Part shown: positions 2,199 to 5,816 of the stretch, in pieces | Layout: each line of letters opens with the position of its first letter | Position numbering within the stretch: the first letter of the stretch is position 1 | Assembly: GCA_002721815.1 (NCBI GenBank) | Contig: PBLQ01000053.1 | Span: forward strand, 1 to 57,297 | DNA from: Myxococcales bacterium | GTDB lineage: Bacteria; Myxococcota; UBA727; GCA-2721815 | Length of the DNA: 57,297 bases | Direction: 5' to 3' | Translations under genes and position numbers: made by a program | Notes under the pieces: generated by a model | What the model was told of the DNA's origin: nothing | What the model saw: only the letters and a program-made list of their open reading frames with translations | Database searches by the model: none

Positions 2199-2681
2199 TC
2201 AAGCCAACAAAGCGCGCCCAATCAAACACCGCTCTACCGGCACCCCCATTAAACTCAAAAAACCCATCTCACATTCGGCTTGGCGAATTGCATCTTCGTC
2301 AGATAACTCGTGGTCCAATCCTAACAAATGCAACAAACCATGCGCAATGAGCACAGATATTTCATCCAAAAGGTCATGACCACAGTTGAGCGCTTGTTTG
2401 CGTGCTTGAGGGATAGCGATAACCAAATCTCCCAGGATATGCTCGAGGCCTGGCATAGGCTGCCCTTCCCATGCTGAAAAGGAGAGCACATCGGTCACTT
2501 TGTTCTGATGACGATACATCAAATTTAACCGCTTCATTTCAGCGTTGCTCACAAACACCACCGTTGTGTGCAGTTGGTCAAGCCCGGTTGCCCGAGCCAA
2601 CTGTCGCAACCGTCTTTTGAGCGGTCTTTGGACCGATACTGGCAACCCCTCAAAGCCTTGAAACGCAAAGCCCTCGAGCAC
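2199..2681 (-). CDS. ybeY: YbeY endoribonuclease / 16S rRNA maturation factor
   Basis: A 160-residue zinc-dependent single-strand endoribonuclease acting in 16S rRNA 3'-end maturation and 70S quality control. The family signature HGLLHLLGLDHE (HGxLHLxGxDH, three zinc-binding His) is intact near residues 115-126. It is preceded by the usual TDVLSFSAWE and LGDLVIAIPQA segments. Translation starts at a GTG directly after the phoH stop codon (TAAGTG), so the two are almost certainly co-translated. phoH-ybeY adjacency is very widespread in bacteria and supports both calls. The length is normal. Confidence 0.95.
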   Translation of the reverse strand: MLEGFAFQGFEGLPVSVQRPLKRRLRQLARATGLDQLHTTVVFVSNAEMKRLNLMYRHQNKVTDVLSFSAWEGQPMPGLEHILGDLVIAIPQARKQALNCGHDLLDEISVLIAHGLLHLLGLDHELSDEDAIRQAECEMGFLSLMGVPVERCLIGRALLA

Positions 2682-3677
2682 TTATTCTCGCTCCTTGACG
2701 CTCGCTTTGAATGCGGCGTTTTCGTAGGTTTGAACAATCTTCTGTACCAAAGAATGGCGCACCACATCTTTATCTTTAAGCTGTACGGAACCCACACCTG
2801 GGACATCCGACAGAATACCCATGGCGTGCTGGAGCCCGGACAACTGACCCACCGGAAGGTCTGTTTGGGTCACATCGCCAGTAATGATCATTTTACCGCG
2901 ATGCCCCAAGCGCGTTAAGAACATTTTCATTTGGTCGACACTGGTGTTTTGGGCTTCATCCAGAATCACGCATGCATCATTCAGTGTGCGCCCCCTCATA
3001 AATGCCAATGGCGCGATTTCGATGGTTCCTTTTTCGGCGAGCTCTTCCACTTCTCTTTGGCCCAAAAATTCATGTAACGCATCATGCAACGGACGCAGGT
3101 AAGGATTTACCTTTTCTTCCAAGTCGCCCGGTAAAAATCCGAGTCGTTCCCCCGCTTCCACGGCTGGTCTCACCAAAACCAATCGGGAAACTTCTTTGCG
3201 ACGCAGTAACGCTACGGCGTGGGCAACCGCCAAATAACTCTTGCCGGTTCCTGCGGGCCCAGAGCAGAACATCACGTCATGGGTTTGTAAACCTTGGACC
3301 AAAAGCGCCTGTCCTGGGCTTTTGGGCGAGATGCGTTTCCCCCGGTACGTGGTAAAGACCACCTCTGAAGTCATGGCCGCAGTATCTATATCGTGGTCTA
3401 ATTTCATGGCTTGGATTAACCCCATGACCTCTTCTGGGCTCACCGTTTTTTTGTTTTGCGACATCAACGTCACGAAACGATTCAGGACTTCGAGTGCATT
3501 GCCAACTTGGGCTGGTGCACCCTCAAGTAAAAGCATGCCGTCGGAGACAGAAATATCTACACCCAGTTGGCCCGACAGTAGTTTTAAGTGACCGTCTTCA
3601 TTTGCAGTCAAACGATCACTGATAGCGATATCTTCTAGCGGCAACTCCGCCTGAATGGTCCCTGGAGGTTGTTCCAT
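2682..3677 (-). CDS. phoH: PhoH-like ATPase
   Basis: A 331-residue cytoplasmic P-loop ATPase of the PhoH/YbeZ family. The Walker A is GPAGTGKSYLAVAHAV around residue 145 and the Walker B is ACVILDEAQN. VKPAVEAGE-type (here VRPAVEAGERLGFLPGDLEEK) and TGDVTQTDLP motifs follow. The N-terminal 110 residues form the KH-like RNA-binding region usual in this family. It partners with YbeY, whose gene follows without a gap. The ATG at 3677 overlaps the stop of the upstream carbamoyltransferase (ATGA), implying translational coupling. An upstream in-frame start at 3704 would lie inside that gene and is less likely. Confidence 0.93.
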   Translation of the reverse strand: MEQPPGTIQAELPLEDIAISDRLTANEDGHLKLLSGQLGVDISVSDGMLLLEGAPAQVGNALEVLNRFVTLMSQNKKTVSPEEVMGLIQAMKLDHDIDTAAMTSEVVFTTYRGKRISPKSPGQALLVQGLQTHDVMFCSGPAGTGKSYLAVAHAVALLRRKEVSRLVLVRPAVEAGERLGFLPGDLEEKVNPYLRPLHDALHEFLGQREVEELAEKGTIEIAPLAFMRGRTLNDACVILDEAQNTSVDQMKMFLTRLGHRGKMIITGDVTQTDLPVGQLSGLQHAMGILSDVPGVGSVQLKDKDVVRHSLVQKIVQTYENAAFKASVKERE

Positions 3678-4579
3678 CAAGCGAGCCGAACATCCAAAAG
3701 CCACTCAATGATGGCTTGCTGTACGCACAAGCGATTGCCTGCCTGCTCATAAACCACAGAGTGACGGCCTTCCAAGACTTCTTCGGTCACTTCTTCACCA
3801 CGACTCGCTGGCAACTTGTGCAAGAAGAGGTAATCATCATGGGCACCTTGCAGCAACGAGGAACTCACACGAAAAGCACTGCGCACTTCTTCATCATATG
3901 AGTCCTGAGGCCATTGGTCAGTGATCACAATGTCAGCGTCCTCTACGGCGGCAGTGGCGTCAGTAAACATCTTTATGGGCGCACCTTGCGCAATGAATCG
4001 TTCAAGCTTAGACTTTGCGTTTTCGTCTTCCTGAGGCAAAGCAAAGTTCATATTGATATTGGCCATCGCGGATAATCCAGCGTAGCCCATGGCGGTTGAT
4101 GTCATGGGGCCTATCCAGGTCCACTGGAGGTCAAAAGCATTTTCTCGACGTTCAAACACCGTAAACAAATCCGTCAGTACCTGACAGGGATGATCGATGG
4201 CGGTCATCCCGTTAATGACCGGAATCCCAGCATACTGGGCGAAAGTTTCGACGTGTTCATGATCTTTAGCACGTAACAGTAACACATCAGCGTAACGCCC
4301 CATCACTCGGGCCGTATCTCGTAGCGTTTCACCGTACTTGAGTTGCAGGTCGCGCGTTTGCATGGTCACTGCACTTCCACCCAACATAGAAATCCCTGAC
4401 TCAAAGGATAAACGGGTACGGGTGGACGGCTGGCCAAATACCATGGCCAAAACACGGCCCTCTAAAGTTTTCGGTACGTGCCCTTGTCGGCGCAGGCGTT
4501 TGAGCAATGAGGCACGCGCCATGATCATGCGTAATACGTTGGGATCGGGGATGTCACTGATTGTGCGAAGATGTTGCAT
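3677..4579 (-). CDS. carbamoyltransferase, ornithine carbamoyltransferase family with altered substrate pocket
   Basis: This 300-residue protein has the full carbamoyltransferase layout and the family length. The carbamoyl-phosphate site is intact: STRTR near residue 53, the Arg of LLLRAKDHEHVE, DHPCQ near 127 and EQAGNRL near the end. The L-ornithine side is not. The usual DGNN after the domain linker reads GPMTST, the SMG loop (DxWxSMG) reads DQWPQDS, and the catalytic HCLP reads HKLP. Only the Asp of TDQW is retained. It may be a diverged ornithine carbamoyltransferase (argF) or act on another amine. No arginine-pathway gene is nearby. AGGAAGC precedes the ATG, and the gene heads a run with phoH and ybeY. 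Confidence 0.75.
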   Translation of the reverse strand: MQHLRTISDIPDPNVLRMIMARASLLKRLRRQGHVPKTLEGRVLAMVFGQPSTRTRLSFESGISMLGGSAVTMQTRDLQLKYGETLRDTARVMGRYADVLLLRAKDHEHVETFAQYAGIPVINGMTAIDHPCQVLTDLFTVFERRENAFDLQWTWIGPMTSTAMGYAGLSAMANINMNFALPQEDENAKSKLERFIAQGAPIKMFTDATAAVEDADIVITDQWPQDSYDEEVRSAFRVSSSLLQGAHDDYLFLHKLPASRGEEVTEEVLEGRHSVVYEQAGNRLCVQQAIIEWLLDVRLA

Positions 4580-4643: not shown

Positions 4644-5816
4644 TCAAGGGTTTAAATGCGAAAAATCGATCAAGATGAGCCCGGGTGGAATTGTGATGGG
4701 TGCCCCCAAAACATTGGAGGTGGCGACCGCCCAATTCCCATCGGCATGAACCGAAAGAAATCGCTCCTCGAAACGGACACCTAAAAATCCATTCCCTGCC
4801 GATACCGCCCCTGGCAAGACATAATCGACGCCTTGGCTCTGAAGGTCTTTCTTTGCCAATCGGCGACCCGCAGAAAAATAAATGGCGTCGCCATTTGCTG
4901 AAAAAACAGGGGTTTGGAAACCACTCCACTGGGGTGCGCCCTTGAGGGCAGCGTGGTTTGCCGCAGACAAAAGAGGAACCCATTGGCCCATTGGCATCAT
5001 GAATCGCCAAAGGCTTGTGCCCGCCTGGGCTTGGCCAACCGAAGAGGAGACCCCTAATCGTTCCTGCCACTGCGGGGTCAGTAAGGCCACTTGTAATTCG
5101 ACCACCCAATCCTTGCCTTTGGGCCCAACCCGTGGCCGCCAAAGGGGGCAAGCCCCCCTGATACCTTCTACGAAAGCGACCGTTTGGGCCTTTTGACCTG
5201 CAGTTGCAGGGGGCTGGAAAGGAATTTTGGCAATCCGCGCACAGTCCGCAAATGCCAGGACGTTGCCATCCTGCACAAAGGTTGGCGTGCGAGCTTGCTG
5301 GACGCCCTCAACCGGAATCGTCGAAAGTCGTCTGCTTTTTAAATCAAAAACGCCAAATTGAGGGCTTAAGCCCTGCTCTTTTTTGGGCCCTCTCACGCCA
5401 AAAACCAGATGACGACCATCCGGGGAAAGGGCCAAATCCCCCAAACTGCGCCAACCCCACTTCTGCTTCATCTTTTCGTCTAAGACCACCAAAGGCTTTG
5501 CTGCATCGGAGGTATCGGAGGACTGAGACCATATGGCCCATCTGGATCGGGTTTTTCCTACAAAGTAAATCTGTTTCTTGTCAGGAGATAGCAATGGACT
5601 GCGAATGTGACGCATGTCTTTGTGTCCGGAGTAAAACCGGGTCACTCCCAAACGCGGCGCCAACAGCGGGATTTCTTTGATTTGAGCATCCCAATCTAAA
5701 ACAAGTGAGTGGGTTTCAGCTGCAGCACCAGACGGGTCGTCTGAAGTATTTTTGGGGCAACCTCCGAGAACCAACGCCCCGATTAACATTCCCCATGTGA
5801 ACAACTGTTTGTGCAT
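4644..5816 (-). CDS. lipoprotein with WD40-like (PD40/TolB-type) beta-propeller
   Basis: A 390-residue lipoprotein. MHKQLFTWGMLIGALVLGGC is a lipoprotein signal peptide with lipobox LGGC at about Cys19. Repeated propeller blades follow, with motifs such as SPLLSPDKKQIYFVGK, LALSPDGRHLVFG, and FSANGDAIYFSAGR near the C-terminus (PD40 type). Such propellers bind peptides or sugars in the periplasm or at the outer membrane; no partner can be inferred. The ATG at 5816 is the only start that keeps the charged n-region, but no ribosome-binding site precedes it because the nrdJ terminator hairpin ends about 3 bp upstream. Expression may depend on read-through or a weak leaderless start. Confidence 0.8.
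   Translation of the reverse strand: MHKQLFTWGMLIGALVLGGCPKNTSDDPSGAAAETHSLVLDWDAQIKEIPLLAPRLGVTRFYSGHKDMRHIRSPLLSPDKKQIYFVGKTRSRWAIWSQSSDTSDAAKPLVVLDEKMKQKWGWRSLGDLALSPDGRHLVFGVRGPKKEQGLSPQFGVFDLKSRRLSTIPVEGVQQARTPTFVQDGNVLAFADCARIAKIPFQPPATAGQKAQTVAFVEGIRGACPLWRPRVGPKGKDWVVELQVALLTPQWQERLGVSSSVGQAQAGTSLWRFMMPMGQWVPLLSAANHAALKGAPQWSGFQTPVFSANGDAIYFSAGRRLAKKDLQSQGVDYVLPGAVSAGNGFLGVRFEERFLSVHADGNWAVATSNVLGAPITIPPGLILIDFSHLNP

Follow-up and report, generated by a model that had tools for sequence, protein, structure and literature searches.

A transcarbamylase paralogue that keeps the carbamoyl-phosphate site and has lost the ornithine site: a possible carbamoyl-phosphate binder in one bacterial class

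Transcarbamylases are recognized through a conserved carbamoyl phosphate (CP) site, and to our knowledge the new members so far added to the group are enzymes re-tooled for other amines. The protein described here is encoded in a window of 57,297 nucleotides, positions 1 to 57,297 of contig PBLQ01000053.1 of a Myxococcales bacterium. It resembles ornithine transcarbamylase (OTC, ArgF) in fold (4f2g), CP site, length and ancestry, but it lacks DGNN, DxxxSMG and HCLP, lies outside an arginine cluster and belongs to a genome that uses N-acetylornithine carbamoyltransferase (AOTCase). With putrescine carbamoyltransferase (PTCase) it shares the fold, a Gln in the first motif and the missing SMG motif, but it has no C-terminal helix, falls far under the family cut-off and comes from a genome in which the agmatine route is unmatched. 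Like the diaminopropionate and diaminobutyrate enzymes (DPTCase and DBTCase) it sits on the OTC branch with a changed 240's loop and HxLP residue; unlike them, it has neither HDLP nor (T/S)RWQxxG. The YgeW-type YTCase is similar in that its CP site is evident and its second substrate unknown, but YTCase is knotted, carries extra helices and a polar second site and lies near carbamate kinase, whereas the window protein is unknotted and its second-site polar residues are not conserved. None of the open papers whose full text was searched describes an inactive or CP-only transcarbamylase.

The gene (Table 1) reads on the minus strand from an ATG at 4579 down to 3677, behind a ribosome-binding-like stretch (AGGAAGGAAG, 4596-4587), and stop codons occur on the plus strand across 3677-4579. 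Pfam matched both transcarbamylase domains, and the NCBIfam models for OTC ranked first, yet the protein scored under their cut-offs (TIGR00658, 249 versus 280.85; NF001986, 287.6 versus 306) and under that for PTCase (TIGR04384, 213.9 versus 500). Its AlphaFold2 model (pLDDT 95.2) has the two-domain transcarbamylase fold, matching transcarbamylase structures at Z 35-40, with OTCs nearest (4f2g, Z 40.3, rmsd 1.7, 286 aligned). The superfamily motifs Fx(E/K/N/D/A/Q)xSxRT, HPxQ and HxLP appear as FGQPSTRT, HPCQ and HKLP; the third position of the first is Gln in the window protein, Lys in OTCs and Arg in the orthologue L053. The features that mark the individual families are missing. At the OTC loop DxxxSMG the protein reads DQWPQDS, and the Asn167 equivalent of the DGNN loop is Ser161, SMG and this Asn each being present in 58/58 canonical sequences. 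At the PTCase loop (Y/W)(G/W)(V/L/I)x it reads WPQDSY, and the chain stops at 300 aa with no C-terminal helix extension; HKLP and DQWPQD stand at the DPTCase/DBTCase signatures HDLP and (T/S)RWQ(T/S)(T/M)G. The ATCase RxQxER loop is absent, as are, on alignment with the genome's own AOTCase, the proline-rich loop and extended 120's loop of the knotted AOTCase and SOTCase.

Table 1. Features of the window discussed in the text
Feature	Coordinates	Strand	Basis or remark
Transcarbamylase paralogue, 300 aa	3677..4579	-	ORF; Pfam OTCace_N + OTCace
STRTR motif, residues 52-56, phosphate of CP	4412..4426	-	invariant in five-member clade
HPCQ motif, residues 130-133, carbamoyl group of CP	4181..4192	-	invariant in 21/21 sequences, alignment A2
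GPMTSTA, residues 157-163, replaces GDGNNVA	4091..4111	-	canonical N160 56/58 and N161 58/58; here T, S
DQWPQDSYD, residues 221-229, replaces DVWxSMGQE loop	3893..3919	-	SMG 58/58 canonical, absent here
HKLP, residues 254-257, replaces HCLP	3809..3820	-	orthologues HPLP (3), HSLP (1)
phoH, likely ATG start at 3677	2682..3677	-	PF02562, E 9.8e-88
ybeY	2199..2681	-	PF02130, E 3.7e-27
PD40 beta-propeller lipoprotein-like protein, upstream	4644..5816	-	PF07676
B12-dependent ribonucleotide reductase, upstream in window and L053	5865..8813	-	

Positions on the CP side and the amine side were assigned after Table 1 of PMC4581275. On the CP side, S52, T53, R54, T55, R103, H130, Q133, L256 and R283 are invariant in all five members of the clade formed by the window protein and its orthologues L053, L054, L055 and L056. 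The groups that stabilize the tetrahedral intermediate (R54, T55, R103, H130, Q133 and the HxLP backbone) are all present, as in working enzymes. At the 80's-loop CP contact (window position 79) the five proteins, in that order, have Q, Q, H, W and W, and Gln, His or Trp is used at this contact by E. coli OTC, human OTC and AOTCase (PMC4581275). The sequence-only reading had called the STRTR, LLLR, DHPCQ and EQAGNRL motifs intact. The first three are (FGQPSTRTR, LLLR with R103, and DHPCQ with H130 and Q133); the last is so in its CP-binding Arg and in its Asn, but the usual Glu (55/58) and His (57/58) of the ENRLH region are replaced by Gly and Cys. We infer that the clade proteins bind CP in the N-domain.

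The ornithine motifs are changed as first reported, with IGPMTSTA for GDGNNVA, TDQWPQDS for TDVWxSMGQ and HKLP for HCLP. The changes are no matter of chance: in the canonical OTC-type set (n = 58), N160 is found in 56/58 and N161, D221, S225, M226 and G227 in 58/58 each; in the clade, position 161 reads S, S, G, A, P (window, then L053 to L056), position 221 reads D, A, E, A, A, and the SMG triplet is missing from all five. The Asp of the SMG loop, noted earlier as kept, is thus kept in the window protein but not in its orthologues. Less telling is the variable residue of HxLP (K, P, P, S, P); HxLP touches substrates through main-chain atoms only (PMC4581275), which leaves the Cys of HCLP weak as a marker. 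Between residues 150 and 252, T220 is the sole polar residue common to the five proteins. A sequencing fault or misread limited to the window gene is ruled out by the same loss in four orthologues. Judged from these alignments, the ornithine-contact residues have been lost in the clade, and the description of a carbamoyltransferase paralogue unlike the normal ornithine enzyme, its CP site whole and its ornithine site gone, stands.

The loss extends beyond the contacts themselves. Against 2000 quintets of canonical OTCs roughly matched for mean identity, the clade has 0/9 amine-side positions invariant (residues vary among the orthologues) versus a mean of 8.1/9, and a C-domain to N-domain ratio of invariance of 0.47 versus 1.06 (SD 0.15, minimum 0.63); 0/2000 quintets were as low, a count that is no formal probability because the canonical sequences are themselves related. 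The C/N ratio of identity to the window genome is 0.53-0.76 for the clade protein, versus 0.93-1.04 for AOTCase and 0.86-1.08 for PyrB. The AOTCase and PyrB of these genomes retain their second-substrate loops (KSWGALP and RIQKER), whereas at this site the clade protein is different, or about 14 residues shorter, in each genome. For L055 and L056, the most similar pair (about 75% identity), dN/dS is about 0.22 (N-domain 0.15, C-domain 0.31; NG86), values that are rough because dS is high (about 0.9); this pair is under purifying selection, weaker in the C-domain. Across the clade, the entire C-domain is relaxed.

When the class (16 genomes) and phylum (195 genomes) were searched with profiles, orthologues proved confined to the class of the window genome, in four other genomes and three families in all, and the members with named records are Deltaproteobacteria/Myxococcales MAGs. 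The five members, 45-75% identical, score at least 489 bits, followed by L010 at 341 and then by 286 bits. The gene was not found by profile search in the ten remaining class genomes, all small (0.3-2.8 Mb), nor in the other large one, G010, where the contig runs out within the neighbouring gene, so that this is no proof of absence. In a tree built without the amine-site columns, the five form one clade (support 100/99) whose sister (99/98) is L010, a canonical OTC from a different order of the same phylum, its gene lying immediately downstream of argD; the place of the window protein inside the clade is unsure because its branch is long (1.18). On this tree the clade protein descends from OTC, and because the sister is canonical the ornithine site was most likely lost within this lineage. 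A horizontal origin from DPTCase or PTCase was rejected, the clade being placed beside a same-phylum OTC in a tree from which characterized DPTCase and PTCase are absent.

We favor, at a probability of roughly 0.47, the reading that this is an OTC-derived CP binder whose small-amine site was given up rather than re-tooled. The transcarbamylase fold, and presumably the trimer, would still form, CP would be bound in the N-domain as in OTC, and the small-amine site of the C-domain would be abandoned. Because no acceptor pocket is conserved, CP binding may itself be the selected function, with a pseudo-transcarbamylase sensing or reporting the CP level or, alternatively, holding CP for other users such as PyrB and AOTCase. 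Binding by OTC or ATCase slows CP breakdown more than 5000-fold (PMC6022934), so a CP-only transcarbamylase could plausibly be useful. That such a protein, sensing or holding CP and taking no second substrate, is what one bacterial class has conserved we offer more tentatively. If true, a clade that keeps the CP half alone would show how an enzyme can turn into a protein that binds a labile high-energy metabolite. Members of the clade are likely mis-annotated as argF where present, and the AOTCase and PyrB of most member genomes provide internal controls, making the question directly testable with one purified protein.

The main rival to the CP-binder reading, because the intermediate-stabilizing groups are all present, is that the protein still works as a carbamoyltransferase but on a new acceptor, be it a different amine or a large substrate, such as a protein, recognized outside the old pocket. 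We regard it as possible, though on the doubtful side. Retention of every CP-site and intermediate-stabilizing residue is what it expects, some ATCases share the HPLP of three orthologues, and transcarbamylase clades of unknown substrate exist (PMC4581275). A single small substrate acquired early should, however, have left a conserved new pocket, as in AOTCase, and none is seen in the five sequences, where T220 stands alone while AOTCase, a family whose different substrate is settled, retains its loop across these genomes; nor does any biosynthetic neighbour point to an amine. The earlier suggestion that the protein carbamoylates another amine is possible but disfavored by the comparison, since the orthologues, unlike AOTCase and PyrB of these genomes, share no residue at the known amine contacts.

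It is improbable that the gene is a redundant one being lost, its structure a remnant and its function no longer selected. The long branch of the window protein and an amine site whose erosion takes a different form in every genome would suit such decay, but frames are intact in five genomes of three families, the CP site is invariant at 45% identity, and dN/dS is about 0.22 in the one pair.

A secondary or degenerate OTC is very improbable. OTC descent and the rank of OTC families as the closest (NF001986, 287.6 bits) speak for it, but the protein falls below both OTC cut-offs, the Asn, Ser and Met contacts are lost, with the Asp lost too in the orthologues, and the genome has another route to arginine. 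Three transcarbamylases are encoded in the window genome (4.6 Mb, 98% complete). Contig 9 carries an AOTCase (540 bits, cut-off 288) in an operon ordered AOTCase-argG-argE-argB-argC-argH, in which argE is an acetylornithine deacetylase, argB an acetylglutamate kinase of the PRK04531 type, and argG falls under the cut-offs of its models but matches nothing else. Another, on contig 34, is PyrB, flanked by open reading frames resembling PyrR and dihydroorotase on inspection of the sequence, with the single CP synthase large subunit above cut-off on the same contig. Because this arg operon lies elsewhere in the genome, arginine synthesis is independent of the window gene. The gene is therefore not the sole argF candidate, and the suggestion of an odd argF serving the arginine pathway is excluded. 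Model searches of the genome matched no carbamate kinase, arginine deiminase or agmatine deiminase (at a loose threshold the carbamate kinase model matched 14/14 control genomes but not this one), which makes a catabolic OTC or PTCase role unlikely, and it was rejected. Every member genome has a second arginine-type enzyme, AOTCase in four and a canonical OTC (L042) in G002. This OTC (contig C16; L042, L115) belongs to a different OTC branch and lies near parAB; in G002 AOTCase was not seen, and arginine genes were not found beside L042, a case that hints at replacement of arginine carbamoyltransferases within the class.

Least probable is a PTCase, DPTCase or DBTCase, to which the Gln of FGQ (the PTCase residue) and a loop that keeps an Asp and a nearby Tyr would point, but the PTCase model gives 213.9 bits where 500 are required, the C-terminal helix extension is missing, agmatine deiminase and carbamate kinase are unmatched, HDLP and (T/S)RWQ are absent, and the orthologues lack both Asp and Gln.

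The gene was said to be coupled to phoH-ybeY by an ATGA overlap and not to arginine genes. Its neighbours are indeed phoH, ybeY, the PD40 protein and ribonucleotide reductase; the overlap with phoH exists but is of one base, the stop at 3679-3677 meeting the phoH ATG at 3677-3675 as TGATG. The window and L053 share the order, with ribonucleotide reductase and PD40 upstream (PD40 homologues 24% identical, E 4.8e-20) and phoH and ybeY downstream. No link to carbamoyl metabolism was found among the neighbours (PD40, HEAT-cyclophilin, TPR, DUF4388, phoH, ybeY, ribonucleotide reductase), whose order is partly conserved. A HEAT-repeat protein with a C-terminal cyclophilin is encoded immediately or almost immediately upstream of orthologues L053 to L056 (L053:4147-6705, L054:5578-7866, L055:3416-5986, L056:5772-7922); no homologue was found in the window genome at E 1e-20.

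A separate group of OTC-like proteins (L064, L066-L071, L073, L075, L077 and L088), from MAG records of which several are named planctomycetes, has DGNN and DVWASMGQ intact and HDLP for HCLP; HDLP is reported as a DPTCase/DBTCase signature, making this group a mixed case. Finally, in the order of the window genome, G005, G007, G009 and G011-G015 measure 0.3-1.8 Mb versus 4.6-7.7 Mb for other members, and some are of high estimated completeness (87 at 0.3 Mb, 91 at 0.5 Mb and 99 at 1.3 Mb), a spread of size that amounts to strong genome reduction in one family.
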